In this document: piece by piece, positions 10,090-59,715 of the stretch
Layout of the letters: each line of letters opens with the position of its first letter
Position numbering within the stretch: the first letter of the stretch is position 1
The notes under the pieces: generated by a model
Told to the model about the DNA's origin: nothing
The model's database searches: none
Seen by the model: only the letters and a program-made list of their open reading frames with translations
DNA from: Gammaproteobacteria bacterium RIFOXYD12_FULL_61_37
Lineage (GTDB): Bacteria; Pseudomonadota; Gammaproteobacteria; Chromatiales; Chromatiaceae
DNA length: 64,000 bases
Reading direction: 5' to 3'
Assembly (NCBI GenBank): GCA_001801995.1
Contig: MGZB01000002.1
Coordinates: forward strand, 62,001-126,000
Made by a program: the position numbers and the translations under genes

Positions 10090-11010
10090 TTAAAGGTCCC
10101 CTGCCTTTCTCCCCTTCATGATCCGTTGCATGGCGATGTTCATGCTGCTGCGCAGCAGGCTGACGGCGTGGAAGACGTGGTCGATCTCGTCCTTGGAATG
10201 TTCGGGCTTGGTGTATTTCAGCTCCTGATCGAGGTTGCCTTCGGCGATGGCCTCGGCCCCTTCGGTGAGGGCGCGCAGGCGCTTGATGAGGCTGTAGCGG
10301 GTGAAGAGGAAGTTGATGAGCACAGCGATGATCAGCAGGCCGATGGTATAGGGGTTGGCCATGGTGGGCAGGATATCGGCCATGGTCAGGTCGGGCAGCT
10401 TGACGCTGATGACGCCGCGCACGTCGCCCACCTTGTAGCCGAAGGCCTTTTTGTCGCCGTATTTCTCGATGACCTCCGGCGGGGCATCCTTGGGATCGCC
10501 GTGGCATTTGAGGCAGTTTTCCTTCACCAGGATGGGCTCGACGTAGCGGTAGTTGCCCTGGTCGTAGCCCTCGACGAACTTCAGATCCCGGTTGGCCTGG
10601 ACCTGCTTGATGGCGTCCGATTCGAAGTAGTCCGGGGCGTTGGCATCGTTGCGGTACTGGTCGCTGGTCACGCGGAAGGTGGCGCGCAGGGCGCTCTTGT
10701 TGACGATGGTCGACAGCTCCCGCGTCGCCAGGGCGGGGTTCTTGCCATAGAAGGTGGTGGTGCCCTGGGTGTCCGTGAACTCCTTCTTGGCCAGGAAGTC
10801 ATGGAAGTCCTTGGGCAGTTCCTTCACCCAGATCATGCCGGCGTTGGCGATCCAGGCGCGGAAGGCAACCACCTGAGCCGTCACGGCCTGCGCCTCGTTG
10901 CGCAGTACGTTGGTCTTGAGGTTGCGGACGCCGAGCAGCACTGCTGCGACGATCAGCACCAGGGTGGCGAGGAAGATCAGGCTGTATTTGGTTGCAATGC
11001 TTTGCTTCAT
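10090..11010 (-). CDS. Membrane haem-c sensor, DUF3365 (Tll0287-like) plus HAMP
   Basis: The ATG at 11010 (preceded by GGAAAAGGTAAG) gives 306 aa; an upstream TTG at 11040 is less likely. Layout: short cytoplasmic N-terminus, transmembrane helix at residues 9-30 (SLIFLATLVLIVAAVLLG), periplasmic DUF3365 domain with the haem-c motif CLKCH near residue 166, second helix near 220-240 (IGLLIIAVLINFLF), then a HAMP region (LTEGAEAIAEGNLDQEL). It ends about 35 residues later with no kinase, cyclase or methyl-accepting domain. Such proteins sense redox state or gases such as NO or CO through a c-type haem. Lacking its own output domain, it probably signals to a partner, and the best candidates are the adjacent Roadblock and GTPase-Roadblock proteins in the same orientation. 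Confidence 0.8.
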   Translation of the reverse strand: MKQSIATKYSLIFLATLVLIVAAVLLGVRNLKTNVLRNEAQAVTAQVVAFRAWIANAGMIWVKELPKDFHDFLAKKEFTDTQGTTTFYGKNPALATRELSTIVNKSALRATFRVTSDQYRNDANAPDYFESDAIKQVQANRDLKFVEGYDQGNYRYVEPILVKENCLKCHGDPKDAPPEVIEKYGDKKAFGYKVGDVRGVISVKLPDLTMADILPTMANPYTIGLLIIAVLINFLFTRYSLIKRLRALTEGAEAIAEGNLDQELKYTKPEHSKDEIDHVFHAVSLLRSSMNIAMQRIMKGRKAGDL

Positions 11011-11083
11011 GGCGCTTACCTTTTCCGCAGGGGAAAGCAAGGGACCGGCGCTGGGGCAGTAGCGCCGGCCGGGGGTTCCGGGG

Positions 11084-11728
11084 TCAAGCCGTCAATGTTT
11101 CCGCGTCCTTGATGAAACCGAGCTTCTCCTCCTTGTCGGCGATCTCGCTGGAGAGTAACTGGATCAGGTAGCCCAGGTTGGCGGCCTTGGGTTCGTAGGA
11201 GTACTTCCATTCGTCCAGTCGCTCCTGGAAGACGATCTTCGCGGCCGGTCCCAGCCGGTGGGTCAGGGCGGTGAGGATCTCACGCAGCATGGGCTTCAGG
11301 CCCTCTTCGATCTCGGTGATCCGGGGGGCCGCAGCGGGCGGGGGAGCGGCCGCCGCCGCTACAGGAGCGGCCCTGGCAGCCGCCTTGTGCGGCTTGGCGT
11401 CCTCCATCTTCAATTGCGCCGCCGCCGACCGCACGGAGATATGCACCAGGGAGAAGTTGATTCCCTTGCCGGTGAGCAGGGTGATGATGAAGTTCCGGTC
11501 GATGCGGTAGCCAACCAGATAGTTTTCATCCAGCTCGAAGTAGATCTCGTTGTGCGTCTTGCCGATGCTCTCGACGCCGTTGAAGATCTGATCGAGCATC
11601 CGGCCCATGGAGGCCAGGTTGCTGTTCAGCACCTGGGGAAAGGTGGACGCCTGGATCTCACCGTGGTGGTAGATGCAGCCGTGCTGGACGCCTGCGAGCT
11701 GTTCAAGGTCTTTGAGTATGGCTTCCAT
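11084..11728 (-). CDS. Roadblock/LC7-like protein with C-terminal helical domain
   Basis: This 214 aa protein has an N-terminal Roadblock/LC7-like fold (residues 1-105: GVQHGCIYHHGEIQAS, NYLVGYRIDRNFIITLL), an Ala/Pro linker (about 110-135) and a helical C-terminal segment (IEEGLKPMLREILTALT). Roadblock proteins act as GTPase-activating or scaffold partners of Ras-like GTPases, as MglB does for MglA. It starts 3 nt after the stop of the upstream GTPase-Roadblock gene, and the haem sensor gene follows about 70 nt downstream, so the three look like one operon. The C-terminal part is not recognised. Family assignment rests on pattern and context. Confidence 0.65.
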   Translation of the reverse strand: MEAILKDLEQLAGVQHGCIYHHGEIQASTFPQVLNSNLASMGRMLDQIFNGVESIGKTHNEIYFELDENYLVGYRIDRNFIITLLTGKGINFSLVHISVRSAAAQLKMEDAKPHKAAARAAPVAAAAAPPPAAAPRITEIEEGLKPMLREILTALTHRLGPAAKIVFQERLDEWKYSYEPKAANLGYLIQLLSSEIADKEEKLGFIKDAETLTA

Positions 11729-11731
11729 CGG

Positions 11732-13060
11732 TTAACCCCACTGAAGCATGTCGTAGATCTGTTGCTTGAGAATACGCACCGAGGTGCGGTTGTCGGCGAC
11801 GACGCCCAGGGATTGCTCGTCTTCCACATAGAGGGTGATGACATCGTCCTTGGGGCTTTTCAGGATCACCTCCGTCACCCGGCCGAGATTCGCCGCCTCC
11901 TCGAAGGTGGGCGCGACGCCCGCCAGGAAGCTGATGAACTCCATCAACTGCCCGTCCTCGATGGTGGTCTCGACGATGTCTCCTAGGGACGAGACCAGGG
12001 CGGCACCCTTGACGCCCCTGAGTCCCATCACTTCCTGCACGATCTCTTCTTTCATGACGACTTTCTCCGACAGCGGGTCTCGGGCGGCAACGGGCGCGCG
12101 GTAGGCGGGTCCGGGTCTGGTGTTGGGCGGGGTTCTGGGTTTGGGGGCGGCTTCGGGCCGCTGCTCCTTTTGCTCCTTCCGCACCGGCGGTGCCTGTTCC
12201 GGGGGCGGCGGCACGGACGTTGCCTCTTGCGGGGGTTTCTTGGCGGCCTTCGGTGCCTTTGGCGGGGGTTCGGGTGCAACGGGCGCCGGCGCGGCCTCTT
12301 GCTTGGGTTCCACCGGCGCGACTTCAGGCTCCACCGCCTCAACGGTCTCTTCCTCCCTTGTCTCTGCCGCCGGGGCCGGCTTCTCGACGGCCTTCGGCGC
12401 GGGGGGGGGCGGCATTTCCTCGACCTCGGCCGCTTCCGGCAGGGCTTCGTCGCCCATGGCAGCCCGTTGATCCTCGATCAGCGAGGGGTCCATGGACTGC
12501 ATGGCCCTGAGCGAGCGCCAGTCGCTGAAGAAGCAGTGGGGGGCCAGGAGATTTTCCACCAGCATCAGGACATCGCTGCCCTTGCGGGCGTCGATGTAGA
12601 ACACCTCGTAATCGAGCCCGAGGTTCTGCATCCAGGAGTGATAGATATCGATGGTCGGCTTGTCCTGCACGTCGCTCCGCGTCACGCCCACCAGGGTCTT
12701 GGTGCGGGACATGATGTGCTTGAACTCGTCGGTGAAGAATTTGAGGTCGCGGTAAGGGTAGTTGCGGGCGTTGTCGATCAGCAGCACCACCCCCAGGCAA
12801 TCCTTGACGATGCCGCGGGTCATGACATCCCACATGAACTTGAAACGGGGCTGCCCGGGGGTGCCGTAGAGATGGACCGTCTCGTTGTCGCTCAGGCGGA
12901 GGGTGCCGTAGTCCATGGCCACCGTGGTCATCGGCTTGCGGACGGCGGTGCGGTCGGAGACCTTCTCGTCCGTCTCCAGGAGCTTGTCGCTGATGACCCG
13001 GATGCTGGTGGTCTTGCCGGAACCCACGGGGCCCGTGACCAGGATCTTGTAGTTGTTCAT
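11732..13060 (-). CDS. MglA-like small GTPase fused to a Roadblock/LC7 domain
   Basis: This is a 442 aa two-domain protein. Residues 1-195 are a Ras/Arf-like GTPase: P-loop GPVGSGKTTS at 10-19, switch region ending HLYGTPGQPRF (the TPGQ form of the DxxG motif, as in bacterial MglA-type GTPases), and VTRSD near 145 in place of NKxD. Residues about 200-330 are a Pro/Ala/Glu/Lys-rich disordered linker. Residues about 336-442 are a Roadblock/LC7 domain (VMGLRGVKGAALVSSLGDIV). In Myxococcus the GTPase MglA and its Roadblock GAP MglB are separate proteins that set cell polarity and pilus switching; here the two are joined. The gene leads the operon with the free Roadblock and haem-c sensor genes, and an FNR-like palindrome lies 74-87 bp upstream. 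Confidence 0.82.
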   Translation of the reverse strand: MNNYKILVTGPVGSGKTTSIRVISDKLLETDEKVSDRTAVRKPMTTVAMDYGTLRLSDNETVHLYGTPGQPRFKFMWDVMTRGIVKDCLGVVLLIDNARNYPYRDLKFFTDEFKHIMSRTKTLVGVTRSDVQDKPTIDIYHSWMQNLGLDYEVFYIDARKGSDVLMLVENLLAPHCFFSDWRSLRAMQSMDPSLIEDQRAAMGDEALPEAAEVEEMPPPPAPKAVEKPAPAAETREEETVEAVEPEVAPVEPKQEAAPAPVAPEPPPKAPKAAKKPPQEATSVPPPPEQAPPVRKEQKEQRPEAAPKPRTPPNTRPGPAYRAPVAARDPLSEKVVMKEEIVQEVMGLRGVKGAALVSSLGDIVETTIEDGQLMEFISFLAGVAPTFEEAANLGRVTEVILKSPKDDVITLYVEDEQSLGVVADNRTSVRILKQQIYDMLQWG

Positions 13061-13133
13061 GGCGCCTCGAAACTGCGTGCGGACATTACCCGTGTATTAC
13101 CGCATGATTTTCGGGGTTTCGGCGGGGCCTTCA

Positions 13134-13147
13134 TTGACAATGGTCAA
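13134..13147. promoter_or_regulatory. FNR/DNR-like palindrome upstream of the GTPase-Roadblock gene
   Basis: TTGAC-AATG-GTCAA is a perfect dyad of the TTGAY-N4-RTCAA type bound by the FNR/DNR/FixK family. Its centre is about 80 bp upstream of the GTPase ATG (13060). Possible leftward -10 elements at 13096-13101 (GGTAAT) or 13104-13109 (AATCAT) would place it about 43-52 bp before the transcript start, near the usual class II activator position. A single 14-bp dyad can arise by chance. Confidence 0.4.
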
Positions 13148-40154: not shown

Positions 40155-41360
40155 ATGATGAGTAAATTTGAATTGGTGGATGTCGATCCGCAGAACGCGG
40201 TAATCAAGGTGATCGGCGTCGGCGGCGGCGGCAACAATGCCGTCAATCACATGCTGAACGCCAACATCGAGGGTGTGGACTTCATTTGCGCGAACACCGA
40301 TGCGCAGGCCTTGAAGGGCAGTAAGGTCAGAACCGTATTACAACTGGGCTCTTCCATCACCAAGGGGCTGGGGGCCGGGGCTGACCCCGGTAAAGGCCGG
40401 GAAGCGGCTATAGAGGACAAGGAGAGGATCGCGGAGGCCATCGATGGCGCCGACATGATCTTCATCACGGCCGGCATGGGTGGCGGCACAGGTACCGGAG
40501 CCGCCCCCGTGGTGGCCGAGATCGCCCGTGAGATGGGGATTCTAACGGTGGCCGTGGTGACCCGGCCCTTCCCTTTCGAGGGGCCCAAGCGTGCGCGCGT
40601 CGCCGCGGAGGGTATACAGGAGCTGAGCAGGCATGTGGACTCGTTGATCACCATTCCCAACGATAAGCTGCTACCCGTGCTCGGGCGGGATGTCTCCCTG
40701 CTGACGGCCTTCAAGGCCGCCAACGATGTGCTGCTCGGCGCGGTTCAGGGGATCGCGGAATTGATCACCCGGCCGGGGCTGATCAACGTCGATTTCGCGG
40801 ATGTTCGCACGGTGATGTCCGAGATGGGGCAAGCCATGATGGGGTCCGGTGTCGCGGCTGGCTCGAATCGCGCGCAGGAAGCGGCGGAAAAGGCCATCAA
40901 CAGCCCCTTGCTGGAAGATGTCAATTTGTCGGGAGCGCGGGGGATTCTGGTCAATATCACCGCCGGGCTCGATCTCACCATCGGCGAGTTCGACGAGGTG
41001 GGCAACATCGTCCGTGAATTCGCCTGCGACGATGCGGTTATCGTCATGGGGACCGCGATCGACCCCGATATGCAGGACCAGATGAGGGTGACGGTTGTGG
41101 CTACGGGCCTCGGTGTGCAACAGAAAATCGCCCCGGTGGCGGAGCCGAAGCCGGTGGAGAAGAAGGTATATCCCGTGCGTACCCTGTCGAAACCCTCACA
41201 GAGCAAGGAAGCTCCGGCGGCCGAGCGGGGATCGAGTTACCGCGAGCTGGAAAAGCCGACGGTCGAGCGGCTCAAGCAACACGCGGATCTGAATCAGCCG
41301 CAAAACGGCGACATGGATTACCTGGATATCCCCGCCTTTCTACGGAGACAGGCGGACTGA
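40155..41360 (+). CDS. ftsZ: Cell division protein FtsZ
   Basis: FtsZ is the tubulin-like GTPase forming the division ring. The 401 aa protein has IGVGGGGNNAVNHML near 20, the GTP-binding GGGTGTGAAPVVAEIARE near 110 and the synergy-loop region NVDFADVRTVMSEMG near 210. A variable linker leads to the C-terminal peptide YLDIPAFLRRQAD that binds FtsA and ZapD, and zapD is also encoded in this window. GAGGAG precedes the ATG; a second ATG at 40158 is also possible. Confidence 0.98.
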   Translation: MMSKFELVDVDPQNAVIKVIGVGGGGNNAVNHMLNANIEGVDFICANTDAQALKGSKVRTVLQLGSSITKGLGAGADPGKGREAAIEDKERIAEAIDGADMIFITAGMGGGTGTGAAPVVAEIAREMGILTVAVVTRPFPFEGPKRARVAAEGIQELSRHVDSLITIPNDKLLPVLGRDVSLLTAFKAANDVLLGAVQGIAELITRPGLINVDFADVRTVMSEMGQAMMGSGVAAGSNRAQEAAEKAINSPLLEDVNLSGARGILVNITAGLDLTIGEFDEVGNIVREFACDDAVIVMGTAIDPDMQDQMRVTVVATGLGVQQKIAPVAEPKPVEKKVYPVRTLSKPSQSKEAPAAERGSSYRELEKPTVERLKQHADLNQPQNGDMDYLDIPAFLRRQAD

Positions 41361-56415: not shown

Positions 56416-56892
56416 TCACTCCTCCCATCCTTCCGCCTCCATGAGGTCGAAGCGCGTCGGGTCTGGGACCCTGGCGATGGCCTGGGCCAGCCAGCCGGCG
56501 GGGCTTTCGCGCAGCTCGGTTTGCAGGACCGCCAGCAGGTCCTTGATCTCGGCGCCGGGCGAGACCTTCATGGGTTGAATGCCCCGCTCCTTCAACTGCC
56601 GGATGGCCGAGGTGCCCACCGCCTGGATGTAGACGGCGGCACAGCCGTCCAGGGCCGCGATCTTGGCGGCCAGCTTGTCCTCGTTGCCGTCCATGGTGGT
56701 CTGGCCGAATTCGCTGGCCTCGACGAAGCCGATCTTCTCCGGGTCCACCGCGTAGATGGCAAAGGACTTGGCGGCGCCGAAGTGCTGGTCCACCTGTCTC
56801 CTGTCGCTGGTGGCGAAGGCCACCTTCAGCGCCGATGCCATCCAATCCGCCTCAATGTCGCGCACGAGCCGGAATCGCCGTTGCAGGGTCAT
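56416..56892 (-). CDS. nifX: Nitrogenase cofactor carrier protein NifX
   Basis: NifX binds the FeMo-co precursor NifB-co/VK-cluster and passes it between NifB and NifEN. The 158 aa protein has [18 protein letters not shown], the family signature with the cluster-binding His, then [15 protein letters not shown]. The ATG at 56892 lies inside the nifN end (41-nt overlap) and has a strong GGAGGTGA upstream; an ATG at 56841 is possible but gives a shorter start than known NifX proteins. Confidence 0.94.
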
Positions 56893-58273
56893 GGGCGGTC
56901 ACCTCCCGGTATTCCGGTTTCTGCGCGTAGATCGATCGGTAGGGGTGGATCTCTCCCTTCCCCAGGGTCAGCATCAGATTGGCCAGATCGAATAGGGTCT
57001 GGCGCGTGCCCCGGTAGCCGATCCAGGTCTTTTGATAACCGCCCAGGGTGTCGTATTGGGGAAAGCCCGCCCGCAGCAGGGGAATGCCGAGGCGCGCGGC
57101 GCTCTCGGCGCCGTGGGAGTTGCCGATCAGCAGCTCGGCCCCTTGCTCGCTGGCGATCTGTTCCAGGTCCTCGAAGTCGCCGATCTTGACGCTCCCGGCA
57201 GCGACGGCTTGCAGCACCGGGGCATTGACCGGCGAGACGGCGGTCACCGTCTCGGCCCCCAGCTCCGCCAGCATTTGGCTGAACCCGGCCAGCAGATCGG
57301 GATCGGCGGCCAGGGCGACGCGGGCCATGCCGAGCATGAAGTGGCAGTCGAGCATGGCGTCCTGCAACTGGGCGCGCTGGCGCTCCAGACGCTCCGGCAC
57401 CGGTTCGCCGGAGATGCGGTGCAGGGCATCCACCAGGGCATCGGACGCCGCCAGCCCCATCAGGTGATCGAAACGGGTATCGGGCACCCCGGTCAGGCCG
57501 CGCAGCGCGTCCGCCGCCCGCTCCAGGGATCGGCCGACGACCAGGGTGGCGATGGAATCCCCCAGATTCGCCAGCTCCGACAGGGCGGCACCGCCGATGG
57601 TCAGGGGCGAAAAGTCCTGTTGCATCAGATGGCCGTCCAGGGAATCGGAAAGATCGGGCAGGATCACCGGCCGCAGGCCGAAGGCCTCGATGATCTCCCG
57701 CAGCGCCTCCAGATCCCCTGGCGTCAGGGCCGAGCCCACCAGGACATTGACCTGACGGCGCCGCCGACCCGGTCGAGTGCCCGCAGTCCCGGCATCGGGC
57801 ACCAGGGTCTTGATGACCGCCTCCAGCGCCTTGGCGAACCCCGTCTCCAGGCAGCCGCCATAGTCGGGGGTGGCGACGGGCACGACTGGGATGGCGTCGA
57901 ATTGGGGATACTGTTGGCGGAACGCCTTCACCGCCCGGACCGGGTCGCTGCCCTGGGTCTCGGTCAGGCCCGTGGTGGGCAGGCCGATGAGGGCGGGCTT
58001 GTTCTTCTCGGCGATGGTTTTCAGGCCCTCCACAATGGCCTCGTCGGACCCCATCACCGTGGTGACCTGGTCCATGGCGGTGGTCTGGAGCGGGATCGGC
58101 TCGCGGAAGTGGCGCACGAAGAAGACCTTGCCGAAGGCGGAGCAGCCCTGGGAGCCGTGCAGCATGGGTATGGCGCGGTAGAAGCCGAGAAAGGCCAGGG
58201 CCGCGCCGAGGGTCTGGCTCGCCTTGAGCGGGCTGACGGAAAGGGCCTTGTTGCGTTTGACGATTTCGACCAT
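56852..58273 (-). CDS. nifN: Nitrogenase FeMo-cofactor scaffold subunit NifN
   Basis: NifN pairs with NifE to form the NifEN scaffold on which FeMo-co is matured. The 473 aa protein resembles Nif[20 protein letters not shown] at the start, the Cys in [15 protein letters not shown] near residue 44, [13 protein letters not shown] near 92 and [13 protein letters not shown]. It starts 3 nt after the nifE stop, and its end overlaps nifX. Confidence 0.96.
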
Positions 58274-58276
58274 GGC

Positions 58277-59677
58277 TCAGATCTCCAGCGGGGTTTTCAG
58301 GGGCAGGCGCCAGGGCGCGGGTTGCCGCACCGCCGCCCAGACCGGGCTATCGATGGTCAACACCAGTTGCCGCGCCAGCTCCAGCATGCCCTCGTAGCCG
58401 GCGTAACCGAACTCACGCTCCTGGTTGATGTCGAGGAAGGGGATGCGGGCCTTGAGGGCGGTGTACATGTTGCGGCCACCGGCGATCAGCACATCCACGC
58501 CGCGCTGGCGCACCAGGTCGATCATGGCGCGGGGGTTGCCCTCCTCCAGCATCAGGGCGTCCTCGCCCATCAGCTCGCGGATGCGGGCCTTGTCCTCCTC
58601 GGTGGACTTGCGGGTGCCGGTGGCGACCACCTCCATCCCCAGGTCCTGCAAGGCGGCGACGACCGACCAGGACTTCACCCCGCCGGTGTAGAGCAGCACC
58701 CGCTTCCCTTTGAGCCGTTTACGCCAGGGCTGCAACAGCACATCGATGCGGGCCTCTTCCCGCTCGATCAGCGCCTCGGTACGGGCAGCCAGATCCTCAT
58801 CCTTCAGCAAGCGGGCGAAGTCCCGCAGGGCTTGGGAGACATCGCCCACGCCGTAGAAACTCCCCTCGAACCAGGGGGTGCCGAAGGCCTCTTGCAGCTT
58901 GCGGGCGACGTTGATCATGGCCTTGGAGCAGACCATCATATTGACCGCCGCCCGGTGCATGGTCTGTACCTCGCGGAAACGGGCATCGCCGGAGAGGGTG
59001 CAGAGCACCCGCAAGCCCAGTTCGTCCAGCAGCGGCAGCACATGCCAGAGCTCGCCGGCGATGTTGTATTCGCCGATCAGATTGATGTCGTGGACCCGAA
59101 TCCCCTCGCGCCGGACCGATTCCGGCAGGGGGGCGGGCTCCCGCCCGCCGCAGACGTATCGCACCATCGCCTCCCCGGCGATACGGTTGCCCAGGTTCTT
59201 GGTGCCGTAGAAACCGGCCGCGTCCACCGGCACCACCGGCGTGCCCCAGCGCTCGGCCGCCGCCTTGCAGACCGCCCCGACATCGTCGCCGATCAGCGCC
59301 GGCACGCAGGTGTTGTAGACGAAGACCGCCGCCGGGCTGTAGCTGTCGATGGCCTGCTTGATGGCGTGGAACAGCCGCTTCTCGCCCCGCCCCATGATCA
59401 CGTCCTGCTCCGTCAGGTCCGTGGTCATGCCGACGCGGAACAGACGCGGCCCGCTGGAACGGGTGCCCCGGTTGTCCCAGGAACTGCCGGCACAGGCGAT
59501 GGAGCCATGGACGATATGGGCCACGTCAGCGATGGGCAGCAAAGCGATCTGCGCCCCGTCAAAGGCACAGCCCCCCGCCGTCGCCCCCGGCTTCGGTTTG
59601 GCGCATCCCGACTTCGACTTCTTGTTATGGGCGCAGGCCGGCTCGTCCAGCAAGGCGGTAATGTCTCTCTGCTTCAT
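58277..59677 (-). CDS. nifE: Nitrogenase FeMo-cofactor scaffold subunit NifE
   Basis: NifE is the alpha-like subunit of NifEN. The ATG at 59677 gives [17 protein letters not shown], matching the Azotobacter start MKAKDIAELLDEP; an upstream TTG at 59710 lies beside the promoter -12 element and is rejected. The 466 aa product has [32 protein letters not shown] and [15 protein letters not shown] with conserved Cys. It heads the cluster nifE-nifN-nifX-DUF269-fdxB-ferredoxin. A consensus sigma-54 promoter and a NifA-type site lie upstream. nifHDK, nifB and nifA are not in the window. Confidence 0.96.
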
Positions 59678-59715
59678 GGCATAGGGGGTCTGTCTGGTTG
59701 CATTGACCAATGCAA

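Follow-up and report, generated by a model that had tools for sequence, protein, structure and literature searches.

Archaeal receptors such as Af1503 end at their HAMP domain and are often coupled to proteins of 60 to 90 amino acids with the motif LGPx(x)A, known as STAC, a domain that also occurs in CbrA (PMC4834066). Here we describe a comparable arrangement in Gammaproteobacteria bacterium RIFOXYD12_FULL_61_37: three genes within a 64,000-nucleotide stretch of contig MGZB01000002.1 (positions 62,001 to 126,000; "the window" below means this whole stretch) that encode a membrane sensor ending at HAMP, a Roadblock protein with a STAC-like tail (Rob2) and an MglA-type GTPase fused to a second Roadblock-like domain. 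As in Af1502/Af1503, the receptor ends at HAMP and a small helical domain with LGPx(x)A is encoded next to it. Af1502, however, is STAC alone with no effector, whereas the window tail is joined to a Roadblock domain, its proposed link to the GTPase, and tails elsewhere are joined to kinases and cyclases. In CbrA the STAC domain packs under the membrane domain and is likewise a proposed coupling element between that domain and the signalling output, but CbrA is a single polypeptide with an SLC5 transporter and a histidine kinase (PMC13022988). A CbrA-type SLC5-STAC histidine kinase was considered for the window and rejected, as neither an SLC5 transporter nor a histidine kinase domain was found in the three proteins.

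Other described systems resemble the locus in its GTPase or in its haem. The actinobacterial conservons (CvnABCD; PMC4316618) also combine a membrane sensor, a Roadblock protein and an MglA-family GTPase in one locus, but their sensor is a histidine kinase (CvnA) and they include a CvnC gene. The window sensor ends at HAMP with no histidine kinase and the unit holds no extra small gene, CvnC-like or other, so we rejected membership of the conservons. The MglA/MglB polarity module of Myxococcus and Thermus shares the MglA-family GTPase and the MglB-fold Roadblock; in the window, by contrast, the GTPase has a Roadblock-like domain fused to it, the second Roadblock bears a tail, and the locus includes a membrane sensor. 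In the HGbRL protein of Methylacidiphilum (PMC4476040) a haem sensor is tied to a Roadblock as well, but there a globin is fused directly to it, while in the window the haem c Cache domain, predicted to be periplasmic, is in a separate membrane protein. The sensor itself resembles the Pseudomonas azotoformans sCache_heme-HAMP protein WP_033902098, which has two transmembrane helices, a haem c Cache domain, HAMP only and no axial cysteine. The nitric oxide (NO) off-rate of that protein resembles those of known NO sensors; no partner or output is named for it in the text consulted (PMC12889525).

We think it probable that the three genes form a split transmembrane receptor, in which NO (or redox state) acting at the haem would be relayed through HAMP and the STAC-like tail to the Roadblock domain and the GTPase. 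This reading is based on the gene content, the domain folds, the recurrence of the unit across three genomes, and the strong association of the tail with sensors that end at HAMP. The ingredients are already known, namely haem Cache domains, HAMP-only receptors with STAC, MglA/MglB and the sensor-linked GTPases of conservons. In a literature search of titles and abstracts, which left the founding STAC paper outside its scope, we met no tail or STAC joined to a Roadblock regulator, kinase or cyclase beside HAMP-only receptors, and no such broad set of tail effectors. The features of the unit are listed here, in the order of transcription.

11732 to 13060, minus strand: MglA-type GTPase fused to a Roadblock-like domain, 442 amino acids (open reading frame and homologous fusions)
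12521 to 13060, minus strand: GTPase domain, residues 1-180 (GTPase-only matches mostly stop at residue 172-174; predicted helices and strands)
12050 to 12457, minus strand: linker rich in Pro, Ala and Glu, residues 202-337, predicted disordered (low model confidence)
11738 to 12049, minus strand: fused Roadblock-like domain, residues 338-441 (sub-threshold Robl_LC7 match and alignment; low-confidence model)
11084 to 11728, minus strand: Rob2, free Roadblock protein with STAC-like tail, 214 amino acids (open reading frame, model and fold match)
11393 to 11728, minus strand: Roadblock domain of Rob2, residues 1-112; helix, two strands, helix, three strands, helix (AlphaFold2, Foldseek, VIA-align)
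11087 to 11305, minus strand: STAC-like helical tail of Rob2, residues 142-214 (73 residues; helices 142-177, 182-193 and 199-213)
11240 to 11254, minus strand: LGPAA signature of the tail, residues 159-163 (translation)
11043 to 11070, minus strand: hairpin of 10 pairs with a poor T run, in the gap between Rob2 and the sensor (RNA fold and terminator scan)
10090 to 11010, minus strand: HAMP-only sensor with a predicted covalent-haem Cache domain, 306 amino acids (open reading frame, Pfam)
10393 to 10908, minus strand: predicted periplasmic sCache_heme (Tll0287-like) domain, residues 35-206 (PF11845, E 2.2e-33)
10501 to 10515, minus strand: haem c motif CLKCH, residues 166-170 (translation; kept in the sister species, stretch L005)
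10162 to 10299, minus strand: HAMP domain, residues 238-283 of 306 (PF00672, E 8.1e-7), the sole recognised cytoplasmic domain

The three minus-strand open reading frames, called with a simple codon-usage caller, span 13060 to 10090 in the order fusion, Rob2, sensor. Their shared strand, their domains and the CLKCH motif agree with an earlier note made from this DNA, whose end coordinate of 13147 lies 87 bases past the fusion start codon. Rob2 starts 3 nt past the fusion stop. The sensor starts at an ATG at 11010, 73 nt past the Rob2 stop, or possibly at a TTG at 11040, which would leave a gap of 43 nt.

Rob2 had no match in Pfam up to an E value of 1, Robl_LC7 included, and only two chance-level matches in NCBIfam (E 0.088 and 0.28). 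The Pfam Robl_LC7 model is reported to miss true MglB relatives (PMC4316618). AlphaFold2, given a 43-row alignment in which five rows cover the N-terminal part and the remainder are tails, returned a model with a mean predicted local distance difference test score (pLDDT) of 90, with blocks of 88-97 up to residue 110 and a low-confidence stretch before the tail. By Foldseek and VIA-align, residues 1-112 of this model matched Roadblock/LC7 structures, among them the Streptomyces structure 3kye (Z 16.6, rmsd (root-mean-square deviation) 1.8 over 111 residues) and MglB (6hjm, Z 15.6; 6h5b, Z 15.3). The earlier assignment of this protein as Roadblock-type thus holds, and by its predicted structure Rob2 combines the MglB fold with an additional tail.

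The tail would connect Rob2 to sensors. As the earlier note stated, it is unrecognised: it belongs to no Pfam family, and no single Pfam family matches more than 3 of the 74 tails that we collected. A family search with Rob2 also found seven proteins that matched over the tail only, all sharing another N-terminal domain, which is DUF4388 by Pfam (over the cut-off in one of six tested, below it in four, no match in one). In five of the seven, from four genera (L072-L076; L numbers are fetched genomic stretches), the next gene is convergent and encodes a HAMP-only haem sensor, where HAMP-only means a membrane sensor that ends just after HAMP without a further recognised domain. Because these five haem pairs are convergent, the adjacency of sensor and tail is kept without an operon. 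L077 and L078, from one genus, have no HAMP-only sensor within two genes.

A tail profile (A6) gave 13 matches in 10 of 321 genomes of the class, and a wider profile (A8) matched in 37 of 369. Matches from G347 and G286 (G numbers are genomes) were omitted from the A8 build as near copies, and two from G412 as weak (26 aligned positions, E 7.2e-4; fetched stretches without a HAMP or tail match); G412 is not among the 37. To annotate the surroundings of the tails we used a single gene caller and two profiles, that of the tail and one for HAMP. The HAMP profile derives from 12 of the sensors studied here and may miss distant HAMPs in control genes; Pfam HAMP was over its cut-off in all six sensors tested (window, L072, L081, L080, L083, L091). 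A HAMP-only sensor was found within two genes of 51 of the 60 tail-bearing open reading frames, three of which are from Pseudomonas, and was the direct neighbour in 49. By comparison, among 414 genes located further than two positions from the tail on the same stretches one was HAMP-only, and 348 genes on 23 stretches without a tail match gave one HAMP and no HAMP-only protein. Fisher's test of the pairing gives p of about 1e-57, which is overstated since related genomes were counted and the reading frames are not independent. The pairs occur in 22 families and, counted per genome, in 34 of the 37 A8-positive class genomes; the others are G280 and G481, whose tail genes are at stretch edges, and G476. 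The 51 paired sensors comprise 36 with CXXCH and 15 with none, 46 on the same strand as the tail gene and 5 convergent. Four counted sensors are ill-defined: L166 (69 amino acids, no transmembrane stretch, probably a fragment), L153 (199 amino acids, one transmembrane stretch), L148 (520 nt overlap with the tail gene) and L168 (cut at the stretch start).

The proteins that carry the tail differ in their effector domains. By sequence matches the 60 comprise 25 Ser/Thr kinases, 6 class III cyclases, 12 DUF4388-like proteins, 5 Rob2 proteins and 12 unclassed (one of these, L170, with a sub-threshold DUF4388 match), and in the four named types the tail is C-terminal. Pfam confirmed both kinases and all three cyclases tested. 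Two tails are present in 23 of the 25 kinases, and the remaining two are at stretch edges. At L147 6117-10067 (G286) and L150 5600-9594 (G406), a single HAMP-only haem sensor is flanked by a two-tail cyclase and a two-tail Ser/Thr kinase, as if one receptor served two outputs.

Similar results were obtained in Pseudomonas, where 3 of 149 genomes have the tail and 14 have PF11845 (15 matches). The three tail-bearing genomes hold the three strongest PF11845 matches, each a HAMP-ending sensor of 292-328 amino acids beside a two-tail kinase; they are exactly the genomes with a HAMP-only sCache_heme sensor, and each pair is adjacent. These pairs bear on the P. azotoformans protein, which has the same architecture; the neighbouring Ser/Thr kinase with two tails is that of the 3 sampled genomes of 149. 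Eleven further genomes account for the remaining 12 PF11845 matches, which comprise ten stand-alone proteins (nine with 182-206 amino acids and no HAMP match, one with 250) and two of GGDEF type, a label read from sequence and not from Pfam. In the three pairs (L200-L202) the sensor and kinase are followed by a gene for 271 amino acids; in L201 its best NCBIfam match, to a PP2C-type phosphatase, scores 176 bits against a curated threshold of 230.

The unit is found in two other genomes. In the sister species G001 (same genus; L005/L037) the order and the proteins are the same (435, 212 and 322 amino acids). In G504, of a different family in the same class (L103), a fusion of 434 amino acids and a Rob2 of 223 with tail are followed by a HAMP-only receptor of 394 amino acids that matches HK_sensor/dCache and lacks a haem motif. 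The flanking genes differ (the recC side in the window, uvrA upstream in G001, DUF455 downstream in G504), and because the order is kept among different neighbours we regard it as more than chance. Since G504 has a dCache-type, non-haem receptor in the same gene order, HAMP and tail are the constant elements and the sensor domain varies. The module is rare. The family search with Rob2 matched in 9 of 194 genomes, at full length only in the window genome (G000) and G001, of one genus; in the class sample the tail-bearing reading frames that matched Rob2 were those of G000 and G504, and in a phylum sample of 398 genomes Rob2 matched G000 only.

Does the tail represent STAC? The best match of the A8 profile in the PDB was Af1502 (5a1q), at a weak E of 0.014, while with a larger tail profile (A11) Af1502 ranked 10 of 13 (E 0.88), also weak. 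BLAST, HMMER and HHblits are reported to fail in linking Af1502 to other STACs (PMC4834066). The looser pattern GPx[AGS] occurs in 71 of the 74 tails and the strict LGPx(x)A in 17; the window tail has LGPAA. Like STAC, the tail is genomically coupled to HAMP-only receptors (the window and 50 further tail genes). In the Rob2 model it is all-helical with three helices, the first 36 residues long, where STAC is a four-helix bundle; the structure-match list was filled by the Roadblock domain and we make no claim of a new fold. In view of the weak profile matches we call the tail STAC-like rather than STAC.

The GTPase domain appears to belong to the MglA family. It has a P-loop GTPase core related to the GTPases of MglB-linked loci, and one criterion for the family is a gene position at most four genes from an MglB homologue (PMC4316618); here the adjacent Rob2 has the MglB fold. 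Identity to two free GTPases was 54% and 55% (L035 and L040), the first of which adjoins a Robl_LC7 gene by Pfam and the second a homologue of that gene. In a 17-row GTPase alignment K16, T17, T45, T46, P68, G69, R72 and F73 are invariant and Q70 nearly so, and a 4-residue insertion sets the window, G001 and G504 fusions apart from the other 14 rows, which lack it. The window fusion is 78% identical to the L005 fusion and 43% to that of L103. Its GTPase model has blocks of pLDDT mostly 75-91, with 46-56 at residues 31-50, and the linker falls below 50 at residues 202-286 and 288-341 (AlphaFold2), consistent with the disorder described in the earlier note. The C-terminal domain scores below the Robl_LC7 cut-off (19.5 against 23 bits, E=8.4e-4) and aligns in 5 fusions of the 17-row alignment, namely those of the window, G001, G504 and the type found on contig C54 (C numbers are contigs; the window is on C2).

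That last type bears on a statement of the earlier note, that GTPase and Roadblock are separate in known systems; it is not general, as the window's own genome has a second GTPase-Roadblock fusion at C54. This genome has three MglA-type loci in all. The C12 locus holds a free GTPase, a 211-amino-acid protein, Robl_LC7, PAS and phosphonate-binding-type genes. We considered the 211-amino-acid neighbour of free MglA genes as a Rob2 homologue and rejected it at an hhalign probability of 0.15%, a weak test with few rows on both sides. The C54 locus (L036 9837-12928), between rpoC and rpsL, encodes a 411-amino-acid FtsZ paralogue, the second fusion and a second Rob2 with tail, and a matching cluster occurs on C8 of G001 (L039 9195-12292). 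It is unusual to find a tubulin-family protein next to an MglA-type switch. Another FtsZ is encoded in the window at 40155-41360.

The sensor is a strong match to PF11845, listed as DUF3365 in the earlier note (116.1 bits against a cut-off of 24.1), with two hydrophobic transmembrane stretches on a simple hydrophobicity scale. As had been claimed, it has no output domain, since Pfam found no domain after HAMP. According to PMC12889525, stand-alone members of the family have Cys/His ligation, bind NO weakly and are assigned redox roles, whereas those with HAMP lack the Cys and bind NO tightly. In Pseudomonas, a Cys exactly 78 residues before the haem motif, presumably the axial cysteine, was present in all nine stand-alone proteins examined. 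Among the HAMP-only haem sensors it was present in 0 of 32; 29 had no Cys in the preceding 150 residues and 3 had one at -138 to -140 (32 of 34 distinct sensors were counted, with L148 and L168 left out). The window sensor has no Cys in the 150 residues preceding CLKCH, and with its transmembrane helices and HAMP it falls in the signalling class of sCache_heme. By this analogy its haem is most likely NO-binding and possibly redox-reading, which favours the gas control suggested in the earlier note. Four matches to cytochrome d1, the family of the nitrite reductase NirS, fall in three open frames of the genome, which suggests that the organism denitrifies; because of these genes, NO may be made inside the organism.

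A receptor built as proposed could instead have a haem that reads redox state, through periplasmic electron transfer. A c-type haem can change redox state and the stand-alone members have such roles (PMC12889525), but the window sensor, with transmembrane helices and HAMP and no axial Cys, is like the NO-binding Target 2 of that paper, and we consider the redox version rather unlikely.

In the split receptor that we favour, the periplasmic covalent haem would, on binding NO or perhaps on a change in redox state, change the Cache domain, and the signal would cross the membrane to a HAMP with no output attached. The tail of Rob2 would read HAMP in trans and change how the Rob2 Roadblock acts on the GTPase, itself carrying a second Roadblock-like domain on a flexible linker. 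MglB-type Roadblocks pair. Because the two Roadblock domains of this unit probably pair too, the receptor would control the GTPase cycle through the tail. We infer here the contact between HAMP and tail, NO as the signal, the Roadblock pairing, the direction of the effect on GTP hydrolysis and the target of the GTPase. The earlier suggestion that the GTPase branch is the missing output of the sensor gains support from the 51 of 60 pairing and from the recurrence of the order in G504 with a different sensor. A broader reading is that output-less HAMP sensors of bacteria (haem, dCache and others) form a general class that docks in trans to a STAC-like tail on interchangeable outputs (Ser/Thr kinase, class III cyclase, DUF4388-like, Roadblock-GTPase), with a Ras-like GTPase here the direct target of periplasmic NO; we hold the case for it to be evenly balanced.

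Another possibility is that the sensor and the Roadblock-GTPase pair work separately, and that the sensor signals elsewhere, for instance to the C54 Rob2 or to a tail protein on C9 (L113 9122-10645; DUF4388-like by similarity to L072, with no Pfam match), a possible cross-talk partner. With three tail proteins and two HAMP-only haem sensors in the genome, partners could cross-talk. The hairpin in the 43-nt or 73-nt gap before the sensor is possibly a weak terminator or attenuator; terminator-like sites in the region number 4, against 3.6 expected by shuffling, and no such hairpin was seen when the equivalent gap of L005 was folded. Separate function is improbable in view of the order kept in G001 and G504 among different neighbours and of the HAMP-only sensor within two genes of 51 of 60 tail genes. 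Of the 33 HAMP matches in the genome we examined five, in open frames of up to 551 amino acids (C2, C9, two at C55, and C52); only those on C2 and C9 are HAMP-only, and both adjoin a tail gene, the C9 one being the second HAMP-only haem sensor and adjoining the C9 tail protein. A separate open frame of 2093 amino acids (G000:C50:12124-15036) has eleven successive HAMP matches, a poly-HAMP protein. A role of the tail as an anchor to membrane or cytoskeleton that simply keeps effectors close to the membrane, with HAMP-only sensors co-located for another reason, would suit the FtsZ-like locus, where Rob2 has the tail and no adjacent sensor, and the docking of the CbrA STAC on the cytoplasmic face of its transporter (PMC13022988), but it is equally improbable, as 51 of 60 tail genes lie near output-less receptors with several kinds of sensor domain, which a general anchor would not lead one to expect.

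Several observations weigh against the split receptor. Nine of the 60 tail genes have no HAMP-only neighbour, and while three of these (L159, L163, L177) are at stretch edges, six (L036, L039, L077, L078, L173, L176) are outside the edge rule; they include the FtsZ-like locus of both species. Homology of the tail to STAC by profile is weak. The hairpin between Rob2 and the sensor leaves a single transcript not assured. The fusion model has a mean pLDDT of only 59, so we make no judgement from it of Roadblock-GTPase docking, and the NO assignment rests on a relative. The full three-gene module is rare, being confined to its own genus and G504 in the class sample and to 1 of 398 genomes in the phylum sample.

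The locus gave no support to the link to type IV pili that the earlier note had raised, and we rejected it. The pilB/pilC/pilD-type genes reported in the window are indeed present, at 50.9-54.7 kb, about 38 kb away, while the "msh" gene fits an MshEN domain inside the pilB-like protein; the unit holds no pilus gene, with the wider neighbours in G001 and G504 partly annotated. Elsewhere in the window, two adjacent minus-strand genes (56852-59710) are of the nitrogenase component 1 type oxidoreductase family.

HAMP-only receptors are model proteins for transmembrane signalling, and those of archaea have been reported often beside small STAC proteins whose precise role was called unclear. The tail-bearing effectors point to likely partners of such receptors, naming one for each, be it a kinase, a cyclase or a GTPase, and with pairs in 22 families of the sampled class the tail would allow partners to be predicted for unannotated HAMP-only sensors. 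Our proposal would also give the NO-binding HAMP-type haem sensors the output that they lack, and would link MglA-type GTPases directly to an external signal. If true, this would be a bacterial counterpart of receptor-to-G-protein signalling.

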